Assembly: GCF_011604685.1 (NCBI RefSeq)
Contig: NZ_CP050063.1
Coordinates: forward strand, 6,923,001 to 6,987,000
Direction: 5' to 3'
DNA from: Spirosoma aureum
GTDB lineage: Bacteria; Bacteroidota; Bacteroidia; Cytophagales; Spirosomataceae
DNA: 64,000 nucleotides
Within the stretch, counting starts at the first letter, position 1; each line of letters starts with the position of its first letter. Below, piece after piece: positions 5,015 through 46,088 of this stretch. The notes beneath the pieces were generated by a model. The model worked only from the letters and a program-made list of their open reading frames with translations, had not been told where the DNA came from and searched no databases. The position numbers and the translations under genes were made by a program.

Positions 5015-5108
5015 AGAGCAGATACGTTGACAATAAAGTAATAGTGCAAAATTACAACGAAAATTGGGTTCGTCATCCCAGATAGTAAATTTGGTTTACT
5101 ATCTCAAT

Positions 5109-18485: not shown

Positions 18486-20813
18486 TTACACTGTCTCTGT
18501 AACTAAATCGCGGGCTGTTTGGGCAGCCTGAACCATATTTTTCAGCGCATCGGCTGTTTCTGACCACCGGCGTGTTTTCAATCCACAGTCTGGATTCACC
18601 CACAAATTGCGGGCAGGTAAGACATTTGTTGCCTTTTGTAAAAGCTCAACCATTTCGTCAACCGTTGGCACACGTGGGCTGTGAATGTCATAAACACCGG
18701 GGCCTATTTCGTTGGGATAAGCAAATTTCCCGAACGCGTCAAGCAGTTCCATCTGCGATCGGGACGTTTCAATGGTGATCACATCAGCATCCAGGCCGGC
18801 AATCGCACCGATAATATCGTTGAACTCGGCATAGCACATATGCGTATGGATCTGCGTATGATCCTGAACACCCGAAGCCGCCACCCGAAAAGCCATAACC
18901 GCCCAGGCAAGATAAGCGTCCCAGTTCTCCCGACGCAGCGGAAGTCCTTCCCGCAGCGCAGGTTCGTCGATCTGAATAATGCCGATACCAGCCGCTTCCA
19001 AGTCGACAACCTCATCATGAATCGCCAGTGCAATCTGTAGACAGGTATCCCGACGCGGCTGATCGTCGCGCACAAACGACCATTGCAGAATGGTAACTGG
19101 CCCGGTAAGCATTCCTTTAAGCGGCTTATTGGTCAGCGATTGGGCATATTGCGACCAGCGCACGGTCATTGGCGCGGGGCGATACACATCTCCGTAAATG
19201 ATAGGTGGTTTCACGCAGCGTGACCCATAGCTCTGTACCCATCCGTTTTCGCTAAATGCGAATCCATCGAGCAGTTCTCCGAAATATTCGACCATATCGT
19301 TCCGTTCAAACTCGCCATGAACCAGTACATCCAGGCCAATTTCTTCCTGCCATCGAATCGCCTGCTCAGTTTCGGCTCGAATAAAGTCTTCATACTGTTC
19401 CAACGTCCTGTCGCCTTTTTTGAATTTGGCACGGTTGGTCCGGACCGCATCCGTCTGCGGAAACGACCCAATCGTCGTTGTTGGGTATAATGGTAATTTG
19501 AGTCGATGATGTTGCAGAGCCTGGCGCTGGGCGAACGCTCCATGCCGACGGGCATCCTGATCTGTCATCAAGGCGAGACGAGCCTGCACGGTTGGGCGGT
19601 TGATTAGCGGAGACTGTCGGCGGGAAGACAAAGCGGCCTGATTGGCGGCCAGGGCTTCTGTTGCCTGCCCGTTATTCGGTTCCCGGAACAGTGTAACCAA
19701 CGTGGAAACCTCATCCAGCTTTTGCCGGGCGAAGGCCAGCCACTGCTTTATTTCGGGCGTCAGGCTCTTTCCATTGGTTTCTGAATTCAGATCACAGGGA
19801 ACATGCAGCAGCGAACAGGATGGCGCAAGTAACAGGCGCTCTGCTCCTATCACAGCGGCTGCCCGCTGGATCATAGTCAGGGACCGCTCCAGATCATTGA
19901 TCCAGATGTTGCGCCCATCTACCACGCCCAATGACAGGTGGGTCTGTTGATTGACGAAATCGGTTTTCAATAAGTCCTCCAGCTGGCTTGGGCACCTGAC
20001 CAGATCAAGATGCAGGGCATCGACGGGCAGTTGAACCACCAGATTCAGATTAGCCCCATAGCATTCGAAGTAGGAGGCCAGCAGGAATTTAAGTTGGGAA
20101 AACTGGCCTTTCAGTCGATTATACGTTACAGCAAAGGCTTCCCGCTGCCGATCGGTCAGATCGAGTGACAGACAAGGCTCATCGATCTGAATCCAGTCAG
20201 CTCCCAGCGCCTGAAGGTGGGTCAATACCTGTTCATAAACCGGCAACAACCGATCCAGCAAATCCAGCCGATCGAAACCAGATTCTTTTTCTTTACCCAA
20301 AAGCAGGTACGACACTGGGCCGATCAATACGGGTTTGGGCGTTGTGCCGAGTGTTTGTTGCGCTTCTTCAAAGTCAGTAAAAATCGTATTGGAGAAGAGT
20401 TCAAACGACTGATCGGCGGTAAACTCCGGAACGATGTAATGATAATTGGTATCGAACCACTTGGTCATTTCCATCGCTTTCAGGTCCAGACCATCCTGCT
20501 GATACCCGCGTGCCATGGCAAAGTAAAGCGTCAGCCGGTCAACGTCGGGCCGGTCGAGTAGCGGCTGAAACCGCTTCGGAATGGCTCCTACGGTCAGGGA
20601 CATATCCAGTACCTGGTCGTAGAACGAGAAGTCGTTGCAGGGAACCAGCGTAATGCCAGCCTGCTGTTGAGTCAGCCAGTTGGTCTGTTGGATTTGCCGA
20701 CCGATTTCCTGCAATTGCTGACGCGTGATTTTGTTAGCCCACAACTGTTCACAGGCCCTTTTGAGTTCGCGGTGGCTACCGATTCGTGGATAGCCGAGAT
20801 TGTGTGCGATCAT
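18486..20813 (-). CDS. metE: Cobalamin-independent methionine synthase
   Basis: 5-methyltetrahydropteroyltriglutamate-homocysteine methyltransferase. Both halves of MetE are present: N-terminal barrel beginning NLGYPRIGSHRELKRACE, and the C-terminal catalytic barrel with zinc ligands in IHTHMCYAEFND and PDCGLKTRRW, plus YPTTTIGSFPQT. I start it at the ATG at 20813 (MIAHNLGYPRIG), giving 775 residues, as the family starts just before NLGYPRIG; the frame also opens at 20861 with 16 extra residues. A cobalamin riboswitch upstream would shut it off when B12 is present, the classic logic when a B12-dependent MetH also exists. It leads an operon with PAS, CWC and thioesterase genes. Confidence 0.96.
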   Translation of the reverse strand: MIAHNLGYPRIGSHRELKRACEQLWANKITRQQLQEIGRQIQQTNWLTQQQAGITLVPCNDFSFYDQVLDMSLTVGAIPKRFQPLLDRPDVDRLTLYFAMARGYQQDGLDLKAMEMTKWFDTNYHYIVPEFTADQSFELFSNTIFTDFEEAQQTLGTTPKPVLIGPVSYLLLGKEKESGFDRLDLLDRLLPVYEQVLTHLQALGADWIQIDEPCLSLDLTDRQREAFAVTYNRLKGQFSQLKFLLASYFECYGANLNLVVQLPVDALHLDLVRCPSQLEDLLKTDFVNQQTHLSLGVVDGRNIWINDLERSLTMIQRAAAVIGAERLLLAPSCSLLHVPCDLNSETNGKSLTPEIKQWLAFARQKLDEVSTLVTLFREPNNGQATEALAANQAALSSRRQSPLINRPTVQARLALMTDQDARRHGAFAQRQALQHHRLKLPLYPTTTIGSFPQTDAVRTNRAKFKKGDRTLEQYEDFIRAETEQAIRWQEEIGLDVLVHGEFERNDMVEYFGELLDGFAFSENGWVQSYGSRCVKPPIIYGDVYRPAPMTVRWSQYAQSLTNKPLKGMLTGPVTILQWSFVRDDQPRRDTCLQIALAIHDEVVDLEAAGIGIIQIDEPALREGLPLRRENWDAYLAWAVMAFRVAASGVQDHTQIHTHMCYAEFNDIIGAIAGLDADVITIETSRSQMELLDAFGKFAYPNEIGPGVYDIHSPRVPTVDEMVELLQKATNVLPARNLWVNPDCGLKTRRWSETADALKNMVQAAQTARDLVTETV

Positions 20814-40931: not shown

Positions 40932-41453
40932 TTACTGCTGATTTTTAAAGTATCGAATCATCTCACCATACCCCATTCCCATCGACAATCCCCTCAAGGC
41001 TTTGGTAATGCGATTGGCTTTGGTTTCGGTAGTTTTGGCGTCTTCGATCCATTTGCTGAAGTAGTTCTGGTGGCCTTTGGGCAACGTTTCAAAGAATTTG
41101 AATGCATCAGGATCATCCTGCAAACACGCCAGAAAGTCGGCGGATAAGGGTAACGGCGAATCGTCTACATCAATGGTAATCCGCACCGATGCGCCTTCTT
41201 CTTTCCGAATACTACGGCGCATGGTTGCGTTAACGGGCATAATAAACGCCCCTTCCGAATCGCCCGATCGCCCCATCGGGATCAGGGCTACCTGTTTAAT
41301 TTCCAGATTATCCAGCGTTCCTTTAACCCGAAAAGACGTTTTCTGTCCGGGTTTTAGCACATCCGTCACATCAATCGGCAGTTCGATGTATGTCCAGCCG
41401 GTTTTCTCGCCTTTTTTGTCAAACTTCTGAAGAATGGTTGTAAACGTGGGCAT
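40932..41453 (-). CDS. YdeI/OmpD-associated family protein with DUF1905 domain
   Basis: 173 residues from ATG at 41453. The N-terminal DUF1905 part (TGWTYIELPIDVTDVLKPGQ, FRVKGTLDNLEIKQVALIP, MRRSIRKEEGASVRI) is followed by the YdeI C-terminal helical part (LPKGHQNYFSKWIEDAKTTE, KANRITKALRGLSMGM). Function is unknown; family members are small cytosolic proteins. It lies 18 bases after the WYL regulator gene on the same strand, so both form an operon. Confidence 0.85.
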   Translation of the reverse strand: MPTFTTILQKFDKKGEKTGWTYIELPIDVTDVLKPGQKTSFRVKGTLDNLEIKQVALIPMGRSGDSEGAFIMPVNATMRRSIRKEEGASVRITIDVDDSPLPLSADFLACLQDDPDAFKFFETLPKGHQNYFSKWIEDAKTTETKANRITKALRGLSMGMGYGEMIRYFKNQQ

Positions 41454-41471
41454 AGTCAAGTTATCGATAAG

Positions 41472-42494
41472 TCAATACCGCGCCAGTGTAGCCATTAGCG
41501 ACTCTTTAATAGCCTGAGCTAAACTGGCAGGCTGTATTACGGTCAGGTGTTCGCCATAGCTGCGTAGATGCATCAGCAAATCGCGGTTGGGTGCCAGTCG
41601 CAGCCGGACAACACATTCTTCATCCGTGTCACGGATAACCTCCTGCGTCTGATGAATCGGTTTTGCCGTTACATAGCGACCAAACAGGGGAGAAAATGAC
41701 AATATAATCTCTTCGACCGGCCCGCTGCTATCCGTAATGCCATAAATATGCTCAAACAATTCACTGACATTCGTTAACACATCGGGTGGAACAGCGCAAA
41801 GATCATCCGCAATTTCCAGATCACTCATTCGATCAAGCGCAAAGGTTCGCTCTTTGCCCGAAGGTTCGTCATAGCCAATCACGTACCAGCTATCGGCCAC
41901 TTCGCGCAGTAAGATGGGGTGCAGCGTTCGTAGTTTCGGTACCTCAGCCAATGGATCGGGCATAGTGACTGCCGTTTCGTGTTTTAAATAGCGAAAGGTA
42001 ATCTGCCGGTTCTGGTTAATGGCCCGAATCAGAACCGGTACATAATGGCGATTCCCGCCCAGCACACGCTCTTCAACATACACAACGCGTCGCGTCAGAC
42101 CTTCTGTTTTTACCTCTCGAATAATATCCAGGCTTTGCCGCACTTTCTGCAGGGCGTTGGCCAGCTCACCTGCTACCGATGCCCCTTGTGTAGCTGTCAG
42201 CACCTCACGGGCGTAATCGAGGGCTTCCATGTCGTCGGGCGAGAGCATCAGCCGGAGCAACCGAAACTGCGGATCGGTGTAGTAATAGCCGTTGCGCCGT
42301 TTGTCGTAGGCAATGGGCGCATCATGATCTTCGCGCAATCGCTGAATGTCTTTCTCCAGGGATGAAATGGAGCGAATCCCGCACTTGTCGCGGCAGAGAT
42401 CGAACAGTTTCTGTTTGGAAAACTGGCGGGGATATCGGCTGATGATTTCGTCGATGAGTCGGTAACGCTGAAAGGCTGATCGGGTAATAGGCAT
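41472..42494 (-). CDS. WYL-domain transcriptional regulator
   Basis: 340 residues: N-terminal helix-turn-helix (about 1-90; FSKQKLFDLCRDKCGIRSIS, DAPIAYDKRRNGYYYTD), then the WYL domain (about 150-230; QITFRYLKHE, LHPILLREVADSWYVIGYDE, ERTFALDRMSDLEI) and a WCX-like C-terminal part. WYL regulators bind nucleotide or nucleic-acid ligands and often control stress and phage-defence loci. The gene is divergent from paralog A, with 192 bases between start codons that contain the CGTAA-N5-TTACG site. It could regulate the PARP locus, itself, or both. Confidence 0.88.
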   Translation of the reverse strand: MPITRSAFQRYRLIDEIISRYPRQFSKQKLFDLCRDKCGIRSISSLEKDIQRLREDHDAPIAYDKRRNGYYYTDPQFRLLRLMLSPDDMEALDYAREVLTATQGASVAGELANALQKVRQSLDIIREVKTEGLTRRVVYVEERVLGGNRHYVPVLIRAINQNRQITFRYLKHETAVTMPDPLAEVPKLRTLHPILLREVADSWYVIGYDEPSGKERTFALDRMSDLEIADDLCAVPPDVLTNVSELFEHIYGITDSSGPVEEIILSFSPLFGRYVTAKPIHQTQEVIRDTDEECVVRLRLAPNRDLLMHLRSYGEHLTVIQPASLAQAIKESLMATLARY

Positions 42495-42623: not shown

Positions 42624-42658
42624 CGTAAAAAGATTACGTTTTACCCGATAGAACTTTG
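42624..42658 (+). promoter_or_regulatory. Shared operator (copy 1): CGTAA-N5-TTACG with ACTTTG element
   Basis: CGTAA (42624-42628), five bases, TTACG (42634-42638); ACTTTG begins at 42653, 15 bases after the last base of the repeat. The same arrangement with identical spacing precedes the second paralog at 45563. The repeat lies where the -33 box should be. Confidence 0.65.
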
Positions 42659-42686
42659 TTCTGTGAATTTTTAAACAACCATACTA

Positions 42687-43163
42687 ATGAACACTTTCTT
42701 TCGCCCCAATCAGAATCGCGCTGCCAGCTCAGCACCATCTCTTTTTCCAGCGCTTAACACCGCTGCTCAATGGACAGCGGCAGCCGTTACGCCCCGACCA
42801 TCGAAACGAGCTACGTTGTCGGCAGGACAGCTACTCGACATCGAACTGGGCTTGTTTCTGTTATCACAACTTCTGCCAACGGCCCCTCCCGATGCCCTGC
42901 CGGGTTTACTGACCGACACCGATTCGTCGTTTCTGGAGCGGCCAACCTGGACTCCCAAGCAACTCAAATTACTGAACCGGGGCCGGGTTGTGCTAAGCCA
43001 TATTCAGCAACGCAATGTATGGACAGCGTTGCTGGATGCCTACACCACCATCCCCGACCGGTTACAAGCCTATGACATCAGTACCGATCGCAGCCGATTC
43101 TGCGAAAAGACGGTTGGCTTTTTCCGTAACCGGATTATTACGTTGAAGCAGATTGTGAGCTAA
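42687..43163 (+). CDS. Hypothetical protein, paralog A of the PARP locus
   Basis: 158 residues with a low-complexity N-terminus and a conserved core: LLDIELGLFLLSQLLPTAPP, LPGLLTD, WTPKQLKLLNRGRVVLSHIQ, VWTALLDAYTTIPDRLQAYD. The core aligns throughout with the protein at 45627-46088 (LLNVELGLYMMAELLPLAP, WSPRQHRTLSQARVLL, VWFKALDKYATLSPELRIYS). I do not recognise the family; it appears helical and cytosolic. It is preceded by the CGTAA-N5-TTACG promoter and followed after 99 bases by the PARP gene. Confidence 0.75.
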   Translation: MNTFFRPNQNRAASSAPSLFPALNTAAQWTAAAVTPRPSKRATLSAGQLLDIELGLFLLSQLLPTAPPDALPGLLTDTDSSFLERPTWTPKQLKLLNRGRVVLSHIQQRNVWTALLDAYTTIPDRLQAYDISTDRSRFCEKTVGFFRNRIITLKQIVS

Positions 43164-43262
43164 CCACTAACCGACGGTTCCCTTTTTTATCCCTTGCATT
43201 GCTGTTTTACGCGATGACAGGCCTTTTATTGCCCATTCACCTGCCTTCAATTCCCTTTCTCT

Positions 43263-44603
43263 ATGCTCACGAACCTGCTCCAGCGTGTCCAGAATTACTT
43301 CGATCCATCACTATCTCTAAAAAAATTACAACCCACAACCGCTTGTCCAACATCACAACCCACACAGCTGCCTCCACCGACTAAATCATTCCGCACGTTG
43401 AAATTGATCATGGTAACGGCAGAAAACAACAACAAATACTATGAAATGCACGAGCAGGAGAATGATACGTTTACTGTTCACTATGGGCGGGTGGGCGGCA
43501 CAAAAAGTGTAGCCACCTATCCTATAGCGCAATGGAATAAAAAGTTTCGCGAGAAAGTAGCGAAAGGCTACGTCGATCAGACTCATCTCTATGCCGATAC
43601 GACGGTAACCTCAGATGCCAGTACCATTGCCGATCCTTTGGTGCGCGGCCTGATGAGTCGGCTGATGGACTTCGCAAACCAGTCAATTTACCAGAACTAC
43701 GTTGTTACAGCCCAGCAGGTAACGCGTAAACAAGTCGAAACGGCCCAGCAACTACTCGATGAGCTAGCTAAACTGGTTGCGCTGGGCGTAGACATATCGG
43801 CCTACAACAGCAAACTGCTCGATCTCTTTAAAGTCATTCCCCGAAAAATGGGGAAAGTCGGTCAGCATTTGGTTGCTCAGGTCCCTCAAACGGCGGATGA
43901 GTTACAGACATTGCATACCCAGTTAGCCAGCGAGCAGGATACGCTCGACGTTATGCGTGGACAGGTCGAACTAGCCCAGTCGAAAACGGACAGTAACCTA
44001 CCTCCGCCGGGCCTGCTGGAAACAATGAACCTCAGGGTCGAACCGGTCACTGACCAACGCGTGCTCAATCTCATCAAGCAGATGATGGGACCAGATGTCG
44101 ATAAGTTCGATGCGGCCTTCAGTGTTCAGCAGGCGGCAACTCAGGCCGCTTTCGACGTCCACATAAAACAGGCCAAAAAACCCAAAACACAGCTTCTGTG
44201 GCACGGAAGCCGCAGCGAAAACTGGATGTCTATTTTAAAAACGGGCCTTGTGCTGCGTCCGGCCAATGCAGTCATTACCGGCAAAATGTTTGGCTATGGC
44301 ATCTATTTCGCCGATCAGTTCAGCAAATCATTGAACTATACTTCCCTGCATGGCTCGGTCTGGGCCAATGGGAAGCAAAGAGAAGGCTATCTCGGTATTT
44401 ATGAGGTACATGTGGGTGAACAAATGGTGGTAAGCCAGCACGAAGCCCGGTATCAACTGCTCGACAGCGACACCCTTAAACGCATTAATCCAGCCTACGA
44501 TTCGGTCTTTGCCCAACGTGGGGTCAGTCTATTGAAAAACGAGTTCATTGTTTACAACCAGGCTCAATGCACGGTTCGGTACATGGTTAAAATTAAGATC
44601 TGA
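43263..44603 (+). CDS. Bacterial poly(ADP-ribose) polymerase: WGR-like, helical regulatory and ART catalytic domains
   Basis: 446 residues. After a Pro-rich N-terminus (1-50) comes a WGR-like domain (about 55-115) with YGRVGG at 74-79 and FREKVAKGYVD. A helical regulatory domain follows (about 122-245; VTRKQVETAQQLLDEL, like the PARP1 regulatory helices). The ART domain (about 255-446) has the H-Y-E triad: His314 in LLWHGSR, Tyr348 in FGYGIYFAD and Glu427 in LKNEFIVYN, with VRYMVKIKI at the end. The Glu suggests chain-forming activity. PARPs transfer ADP-ribose from NAD+ to proteins or DNA, usually upon DNA breaks. A later ATG at 43410 would drop only the N-terminal tail. Confidence 0.93.
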   Translation: MLTNLLQRVQNYFDPSLSLKKLQPTTACPTSQPTQLPPPTKSFRTLKLIMVTAENNNKYYEMHEQENDTFTVHYGRVGGTKSVATYPIAQWNKKFREKVAKGYVDQTHLYADTTVTSDASTIADPLVRGLMSRLMDFANQSIYQNYVVTAQQVTRKQVETAQQLLDELAKLVALGVDISAYNSKLLDLFKVIPRKMGKVGQHLVAQVPQTADELQTLHTQLASEQDTLDVMRGQVELAQSKTDSNLPPPGLLETMNLRVEPVTDQRVLNLIKQMMGPDVDKFDAAFSVQQAATQAAFDVHIKQAKKPKTQLLWHGSRSENWMSILKTGLVLRPANAVITGKMFGYGIYFADQFSKSLNYTSLHGSVWANGKQREGYLGIYEVHVGEQMVVSQHEARYQLLDSDTLKRINPAYDSVFAQRGVSLLKNEFIVYNQAQCTVRYMVKIKI

Positions 44604-44604
44604 C

Positions 44605-44853
44605 ATGAACGCATCACTGAAGCAAATAACACCCTCTGTCGTCTGTCTGGCAGCCACTACGTTGATCCTGGCTGAAGGGGCAACCAGCTCGCTCATTGTA
44701 AAGCAATTCCTGCGCAATCGGGGCTACCGGGCCTATCAGTCGGAGATATCGAACTGGTTGTTTACAGTAGCCTTGCAGGAAGGCTGGGCCATCAACGACA
44801 ACGGTATGTTTCGGGTCTACTACTTTCCCACGCTCAAGGCATTGCCCCAGTAA
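44605..44853 (+). CDS. Small protein following PARP, possible winged-helix fold
   Basis: 82 residues; the ATG is one base after the PARP stop, so it is translationally coupled. Sequence such as SSLIVKQFLRNRGYRAYQSE and ISNWLFTVALQEGWAIND then FRVYYFP looks like helices followed by a beta hairpin, similar to a small winged helix. No family recognised. Tight coupling points to a partner of PARP, for example in DNA binding or regulation. Confidence 0.7.
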   Translation: MNASLKQITPSVVCLAATTLILAEGATSSLIVKQFLRNRGYRAYQSEISNWLFTVALQEGWAINDNGMFRVYYFPTLKALPQ

Positions 44854-44955
44854 CACGAAGCAAGGCCTGAAACGCCGGCCGTCAAGAGTAAACGTCCCTG
44901 TTCTTTTCGTCCATTTTATTGGGTGAGCTATCTCAACCTTAAACGATTTTTACTC

Positions 44956-45291
44956 ATGACGCCTATTCAGCCACTATCGTTTAATGCCCATCTTGAGCAC
45001 TATCAGAATCAGACCGAGACACTCAAAAAATCCCGCCATTTTACTGATAATCAATCAATTCAATAGATCCAGAAACCTAAACTAACCTTTCGTCACTTGC
45101 CGGGAGATGGCTTTCACGGGCAATGATTTACCCGCGCCGACGCTCAGCAGTTCATTGCCCATGTCTACGGATTCGAGAACGGTAAAGAGCTGGCTAATGA
45201 TGCCGATCAGGTAACAAAGGCGCAATCGGTGGTGTGGCAGTTCGAATCAGCCATTGAAGCAATGCTCATGGGTGATGAAACCACATTTTAG
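44956..45291 (+). pseudogene. Decayed reading frame with two internal stop codons
   Basis: From ATG 44956 to TAG 45289-45291 there are 112 codons in one frame, interrupted only by TAG at 45064-45066 and TGA at 45124-45126. The part after the second stop is clearly protein-like (FTRADAQQFIAHVYGFENGK, VTKAQSVVWQFESAIEAMLM), and so is the part before the first (LSFNAHLEHYQNQTETLKKS). CAG to TAG and TGG to TGA changes would explain both. Family not recognised. The shorter 36-codon product could still be made. Confidence 0.6.
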
Positions 45292-45392
45292 TCGCTATAC
45301 GTATTGAAGAAATGCTCCGGCGGTACGGAGTGCAATCATGATGATTTGTTGGACACTACGCATGCATATAGGACTACTACTATGGGGGCTAA

Positions 45393-45554
45393 CGATTAGT
45401 CGCCACCTCTATTGGCATTACCTGGCAGTATGTGGATCAGTGGTTTGCCAATCCAGCCTGCTCTGCTGGGCCTATCAGCCGAGGTTACGATCCATTGCTC
45501 AAAAGCTTGCAAGACCCTGGTAAGATTGGGGCGAAAAATATTTTTTTGCACTAG
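45393..45554 (+). pseudogene. Possible gene fragment of unknown origin
   Basis: A frame without start codon, open from 45393 to TAG at 45552-45554, reads GITWQYVDQWFANPACSAGP and then ISRGYDPLLKSLQDPGKIGA, which looks coding in composition. Nothing upstream joins in frame. The other parts of 45292-45392 show no convincing gene. Confidence 0.3.
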
Positions 45555-45562
45555 CCGAACAA

Positions 45563-45597
45563 CGTAAGAAATTTACGTTCTTCTAGTTGCAACTTTG
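45563..45597 (+). promoter_or_regulatory. Shared operator (copy 2): CGTAA-N5-TTACG with ACTTTG element
   Basis: CGTAA (45563-45567), five bases, TTACG (45573-45577), extended to AACGTAA/TTACGTT. ACTTTG begins at 45592, the same 15-base distance as copy 1 at 42624-42658. The ATG at 45600 would lie inside the promoter, so the next ATG (45627) is the likely start, 29 bases after ACTTTG ends, similar to copy 1 (28 bases). Confidence 0.65.
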
Positions 45598-45626
45598 ACA
45601 TGAACAACGAACAACAAGATCAACTA

Positions 45627-46088
45627 ATGAACGCGCAATTAACCTCCTATCCCACCACAGCCCGCCCGGCCCTGTCCAGCCTTTTGCGCTGGCAGGAGCC
45701 GCTGGCGACTCGGCTACGCTACCGCCATGCGCTGCCTGGCATGGTAGCCAACCGGCTGCTCAACGTCGAACTGGGCCTGTATATGATGGCCGAATTGCTA
45801 CCCCTGGCTCCGGCGGTATCCCTCCCCGACCTGCTCAACGGTCAGGGTCCGGCCTATCGTCAGCGCACCATCTGGTCGCCCCGACAACACCGCACCCTGA
45901 GTCAGGCGCGGGTACTGCTGGCTCCCTACCGCGACCGGGCGGTCTGGTTTAAAGCCCTGGACAAATACGCTACTTTATCGCCGGAATTACGGATTTACTC
46001 CCTGAAAGGCGGTGGTGGCTGGAATCCCGACGTCAGCAGCTACGTCATGCGCGAGCGCCTGAGCCTGTTTCAGGATGCGCTGGCCTAG
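45627..46088 (+). CDS. Hypothetical protein, paralog B of the PARP locus
   Basis: 153 residues from the ATG at 45627. The core (LLNVELGLYMMAELLPLAPA, LPDLLNG, WSPRQHRTLSQARVLL, WFKALDKYATLSPELRIYSL) aligns with paralog A over its full length. The start is chosen because both genes then have ACTAATGAAC at the initiation codon and nearly the same distance to the ACTTTG element; the frame also opens at 45600. The coding region is GC-richer than the decayed stretch before it. Function unknown; shared promoter suggests it responds with the PARP operon. Confidence 0.75.
   Translation: MNAQLTSYPTTARPALSSLLRWQEPLATRLRYRHALPGMVANRLLNVELGLYMMAELLPLAPAVSLPDLLNGQGPAYRQRTIWSPRQHRTLSQARVLLAPYRDRAVWFKALDKYATLSPELRIYSLKGGGGWNPDVSSYVMRERLSLFQDALA

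Follow-up and report, generated by a model that had tools for sequence, protein, structure and literature searches.

What controls a bacterial poly(ADP-ribose) polymerase (PARP), and which proteins work with it? The question is raised by a locus in a 64,000-nucleotide stretch of the Spirosoma aureum chromosome (NZ_CP050063.1, positions 6,923,001 to 6,987,000; hereafter the window), which belongs to a single-contig genome of 8.9 Mb whose closest relatives are Spirosoma. Here, genes for a PARP and an 82-residue protein (W82) lie between two genes for stand-alone pPIWI_RE_Z proteins (Z; paralogs A and B), and a WYL-family regulator gene is divergent from A. The locus combines two modules. The first comprises the WYL regulator, a shared operator and at least one stand-alone Z protein, in most cases two; it occurs in 7 of the 36 family genera sampled. 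The second is a WGR-PARP and W82 operon that is scattered more widely in Bacteroidota; in this family it sits under the operator of the first module, usually between A and B. We consider it fairly probable that the whole is explained by two modules under one switch, with WYL activation in response to damage. A preliminary description of the window had reported open reading frames (ORFs) for A, PARP, the 82-residue protein, B and WYL, and all five were found as stated there. The main features are as follows (window coordinates):

41472..42494, minus strand: WYL-family regulator with WYL and WCX domains, divergent from A (Pfam; orthologs in relatives)
42624..42638, plus strand: operator 1, CGTAAAAAGATTACG, in the A promoter (sequence count; same site in relatives)
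42655..42658, plus strand: TTTG of the A promoter -7 element, 16 nucleotides (nt) past operator 1
42687..43163, plus strand: Z paralog A, 158 amino acids (aa), stand-alone pPIWI_RE_Z protein (Pfam PF18155, 7.7e-16)
43263..44603, plus strand: WGR-helical-ART PARP, 446 aa, with triad H314-Y348-E427 (Pfam; alignment to PARP2 chains)
44605..44853, plus strand: W82, an 82-aa predicted winged-helix protein (AlphaFold2; winged-helix matches; linkage to PARP)
45563..45577, plus strand: operator 2, CGTAAGAAATTTACG, in the B promoter (sequence and genome counts)
45594..45597, plus strand: TTTG of the B promoter -7 element, 16 nt past operator 2
45627..46088, plus strand: Z paralog B, 153 aa, stand-alone pPIWI_RE_Z protein (Pfam PF18155, 1.3e-17)

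Loci and genomes are referred to below by labels of the form L014 and G056, respectively, and one genus as g3.

The shared operator and its distribution

A and B are true paralogs, as first described, because they share 28% identity and both exceed the PF18155 cut-off of 25 bits (58.9 bits for A and 64.7 bits for B). The match is partial, covering profile positions 4-115 and 4-117 of 167; a database search with A returned 110 proteins at E <= 0.001. For B, the ATG at 45627 is preferred as the start over the in-frame ATG upstream at 45600, since only two bases separate the latter from the promoter TTTG.

Two copies of the palindrome CGTAA-N5-TTACG are present in the window, where 0.08 would be expected, and none of 100 shuffles reached two. 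The equal promoter spacing claimed for A and B in the preliminary description is borne out: in both copies, TTTG lies exactly 16 nt past TTACG. This TTTG fits the Bacteroidetes -7 element (consensus TAnnTTTG), and the operator, ending 16 nt ahead of it, therefore occupies the place of the upstream promoter element. In the genome as a whole, the bare palindrome shows no clear excess (11 places, against 9 for a reversed control). When the promoter element is included at the same spacing, with up to 3 mismatches, 4 places are found versus 0 for the control, and TTTG is kept only at A and B.

The same arrangement recurs in relatives. A total of 74 distinct loci were found; the 43 from Bacteroidota (L014-L056) were used, and 31 others, mostly from Actinobacteria, were left out. 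The 43 loci contain 77 Z genes, 67 of which have the palindrome at 2 mismatches or fewer (57 with none). TTTG begins 16 nt past TTACG at every one of these 67 sites, given a TTTG frequency of 0.0053 per base in these loci, and the conserved operator bases reach AACGTAA-AAAGA-TTACGTT. Ten Z genes are without the palindrome: six are the second of tandem Z pairs (L022, L023, L026, L027, L040 and L047), two are the B genes of Fibrisoma (L017 and L018), and two are extra Z copies (near 16186 in L035, and in L052). At L135 (G029:C100), a second, perfect operator lies at position 5017 between WYL and A, about 700 bases from A's own.

Z, the WYL ortholog and the operator are present in the same 32 of 121 family genomes, and in 32/32 an operator separates WYL from the divergent Z gene. 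WYL orthologs at E <= 1e-60 occur in exactly these 32 genomes, in single copy in each. Operator matches are found in 6 of the 89 genomes without Z, all at 3 mismatches; the reversed control pattern matches in 16 of the 121. The earlier proposal that A and B answer a single regulator is thus strongly supported by the invariant spacing and by the coincidence of Z, WYL and operator. WYL adjoins a Z gene in 37 of the 43 Bacteroidota loci, and the six without it include L050 (a 3.3-kb contig) and L052, L054, L055 and L056 (second Z places in genomes with the main locus elsewhere). Most often the genes run WYL (divergent), A, PARP, W82, B. Exceptions are L022 and L023, where B comes ahead of A; L026 and L027, where PARP and W82 are placed after B; L019, with W82 on both sides of PARP; and Rudanella-type genomes, in which B is apart from A. 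The record named Flavobacterium sp. SUN052 (L021, L054) clusters with Rudanella in the WYL tree, and its name may be wrong.

In the Z-bearing genomes, 18 operator-like sites (3 mismatches or fewer) that are not before a Z gene were examined. In G056, a PARP-W82 pair is located on a different contig from A and B, and an operator with 1 mismatch starts 59 bases ahead of its ORF. In all four sampled genomes of genus g3, an operator (1-2 mismatches) precedes W82 homologs (49-53% identical), which lie at distances of about 9 and 15 kb from Z or on another contig; none of the four genomes yielded a PARP. Of all the evidence for one regulator of Z, PARP and W82, these PARP-W82 and W82 sites are the most independent. 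Eight further sites precede genes of the glyoxalase/bleomycin-resistance fold, as confirmed by Pfam in G056, G106, G039 and the S. aureum genome and judged by eye in G008, G026, G068 and G089 (in the last of these, the ORF as called overlaps the site). The S. aureum site, at genome position 5372604 (L007/L139), has 3 mismatches and starts 57 bases before its gene. Two sites lie before RibD_C-type genes: one in G004 (Pfam-confirmed, 211 bases upstream) and one in G098 (unscanned, more than 500 bases upstream). No fitting gene accompanies the remaining three: one in G002, one inside an ORF in G108, and one at 7375153 of the S. aureum genome (L011/L140), between AraC-type and glyoxalase-like genes.

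The PARP and its predicted winged-helix partner

The PARP exceeds the Pfam cut-offs for both PARP (97.1 bits; cut-off 26.7) and WGR (26.2 bits; cut-off 22), and its H314-Y348-E427 triad aligns with that of PARP2. The preliminary description had listed WGR-like, regulatory and ART parts: the WGR and ART parts stand, while Pfam gives no match for a separate regulatory domain (PARP_reg), although a stretch (residues 108-281) is present between the WGR and ART matches. The claim that such proteins are rare in bacteria is a relative one: they were found in 16/121 genomes of the family and 6/395 across the phylum, but 3782 database proteins reach E <= 0.001 (7995 candidates scored).

H-Y-E is kept in 24 of the 27 PARP ORFs examined, that of the window included. 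The PARPs of L045, L049 and L138 have lost most of the helical stretch and carry another residue in place of the triad tyrosine (H-R-E, H-R-E and H-H-E, respectively); the ORFs of L045 and L049, as read, are without WGR. These frames are still open, and from their sequences the products may be pseudo-enzymes. A tree of 38 WYL proteins requires 9 changes to account for where a full PARP is present, at least 6 of them forced by supported branches: PARP is optional in these loci and sometimes decaying. Microbial PARG (PF10021) was found in 2 of the 121 genomes, neither with PARP; other ADP-ribose hydrolases were not searched for. In Cellulophaga phage phi4:1 (L164, 1750-5532), an annotated PARP gene has a tRNA nucleotidyltransferase-like gene on one side and, one ORF away on the other, a DNA ligase gene.

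PARP and A/B do co-occur in other genomes, as one regulon: 14 of the 15 PARPs of Z genomes lie within the Z locus, and the 15th is the G056 protein with its own operator. The suggestion that A and B are target, inhibitor or effector of the PARP is weakened, as 17 of the 32 Z genomes are without PARP and Z is absent from the four PARP genomes outside the family.

The constant partner of PARP is W82, not A or B, because the two are linked both in the family loci and in genomes across the phylum. The W82 ATG is one base past the PARP TGA, PARP is followed by W82 in 20/20 family loci, and W82 accompanies PARP in all 6 PARP genomes among the 395 of the phylum. Among 50,697 phage records, the sole W82 match sits in the record with the best PARP match: LR756500.1 (L163), a 462-kb uncultured phage with a PARP resembling that of the window and a W82 homolog (20019-20231) about 9 kb apart. 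An AlphaFold2 model of W82 (mean pLDDT 89.8) matches winged-helix structures, and W82 is accordingly described here as a predicted winged helix. A tentative proposal, which we hold with some doubt, is that PARP and W82 of Bacteroidota form a two-part enzyme in which W82 positions PARP on DNA, or else completes or limits its activity, and that Spirosomataceae have put the pair under a WYL switch together with stand-alone Z proteins acting at the same damaged or foreign DNA. Such a role of W82 would resemble that of eukaryotic HPF1.

A proposed damage-responsive switch and its alternatives

The WYL protein (WYL 48.5 bits and WCX 45.9 bits, both above the Pfam cut-offs) is the best candidate for binding the operator, because of its position in 32/32 genomes and the precedent of the SiwR layout. 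SiwR of Mycobacterium smegmatis is described in PMC10693628 as a WYL activator, induced by genotoxic stress, with a 19-bp imperfect palindrome in a divergent promoter. As in the window, the WYL gene is divergent from the target operon and the palindrome lies between promoter elements; the likeness concerns the layout. A glyoxalase-like gene is also found near siwR in some Actinobacteria (PMC10693628). SiwR differs in that its targets, as given there, are DinB-superfamily genes rather than Z proteins or PARP, and in that it belongs to another phylum.

In the proposed scheme, genotoxic stress would yield a ligand for the WYL domain, either a nucleic acid or a nucleotide, and a WYL dimer on the palindrome would increase transcription of A, PARP-W82 and B and, in several species, of a glyoxalase/bleomycin-resistance-fold gene. 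DNA ends would then activate PARP via its WGR domain, and W82 might carry PARP to DNA or hold it back. Genotoxic stress is ranked first as the signal in view of the WGR-PARP, the genes of the glyoxalase/bleomycin fold and the example of SiwR. Activation rather than repression is likewise our inference; a differing view (PMC9503650) predicts that WYL regulators of ADP-ribose-related systems are repressors sensing ADP-ribose.

The operator might instead be bound by the Z proteins, in an auto-control loop, or by an unlinked regulator. We regard this as rather unlikely, since WYL is divergent from a Z gene across the operator in all 32 genomes; as for Z, the structure model of A is only fair (mean pLDDT 74.2) and its fold match weak. 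A LexA-type binder was considered on account of the Bacteroidetes SOS box, CTAA-N5-TTAG according to PMC8565304, which has the same TAA-N5-TTA layout as the window palindrome. The window box differs in that it precedes a promoter element at fixed spacing. We found no CGTAA-, GTAA- or CTAA-type N5 boxes upstream of five S24-family genes of the S. aureum genome, which include umuD-like genes and, divergent from a DinB-type polymerase gene, a LexA-like one (identities assigned by eye; recA and other SOS genes were outside this comparison), and a LexA-type repressor is thus an unlikely binder.

Concerning function, an NAD-consuming response to phage or DNA damage, as first suggested, is plausible. 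In its suicidal form, phage or DNA breaks would lead PARP to drain NAD or modify targets until the cell stops, with Z and W82 as sensors or antidotes. That version appears unlikely: with WYL adjoining a Z gene in every Z genome, the locus has the look of an established chromosomal one and not of a mobile island, PADLOC returns nothing for PARP or W82, and no REase (restriction endonuclease), helicase or nuclease domain is present in the 8 scanned proteins of the locus and flanks. Mere chance neighbourhood, with PARP-W82 hitch-hiking on A's promoter without a functional link, would accord with the 17 Z genomes lacking PARP and with PARP decay in three loci. It is made improbable by the concentration of PARPs in the Z locus and by the G056 pair, which has its own operator on a contig away from Z. 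Least credible is that A and B help a nucleic-acid-guided pPIWI-RE-like system elsewhere in the cell. They share their Pfam family with the N-terminal domain of a long protein (about 1,100-1,200 residues) that follows a Y-REase gene in the two pPIWI-RE-type loci scanned, in one of which the pPIWI-RE gene comes next; the S. aureum genome, however, shows A and B as its only two Z genes (pPIWI-RE itself was not searched for), and the match spans at most positions 4-122 of 167.

Related systems and neighbouring genes

By family assignment, A and B are related to a predicted bacterial defence module. The three-gene pPIWI-RE islands (PMC3702460) differ from the window, where Z stands alone and in two copies: the Z domain is present (partially) in A and B, fusion to a long helicase-slot protein is absent, and no REase or pPIWI-RE gene is next door among the 8 scanned proteins. 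PADLOC has Z and WYL models that match the respective proteins; in addition, A and B weakly match a helicase model and WYL matches a Cas3c model. PARP, W82 and OmdA have no match, and the locus is not recognised whole as a known anti-phage system. The closest known PARPs used for comparison are those of Cytophagales clade 1.1, of WGR-PARP_cat type (PMC5966428); the accessible text of that report has no mention of a winged-helix partner, WYL gene, Z proteins or shared operator. In the open literature, covered by titles and the starts of abstracts and with subscription papers mostly outside, we found no link of a bacterial PARP to a WYL gene, Z proteins or a winged-helix partner.

For these soil bacteria of the Spirosoma family, the locus suggests, in testable form, how a bacterial PARP may be controlled and which protein is its partner. 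The chemistry of bacterial PARPs is known, while their role is not clear in the literature as far as it was available; a constant partner, a defined operator and a linked regulator are direct handles on the co-worker of PARP, its timing and the proteins made with it. For the stand-alone Z proteins, whose label otherwise comes from predicted RNA-guided restriction islands, the locus provides a conserved regulatory setting.

One further gene lies beside the WYL gene:

40932..41459, minus strand: DUF1905/OmdA (YdeI-type) protein, 12 bases downstream of WYL on the same strand (Pfam)

Many related loci, though not all, have such a gene, and its product is a frequent neighbour whose membership of the system is uncertain. 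Between W82 and B, the gap at 44854-45560 contains broken reading frames. It looks like decayed genes because its pieces resemble stretches of related loci, located close to B in L042 and L038 and in the W82-B interval of L014 and L016.

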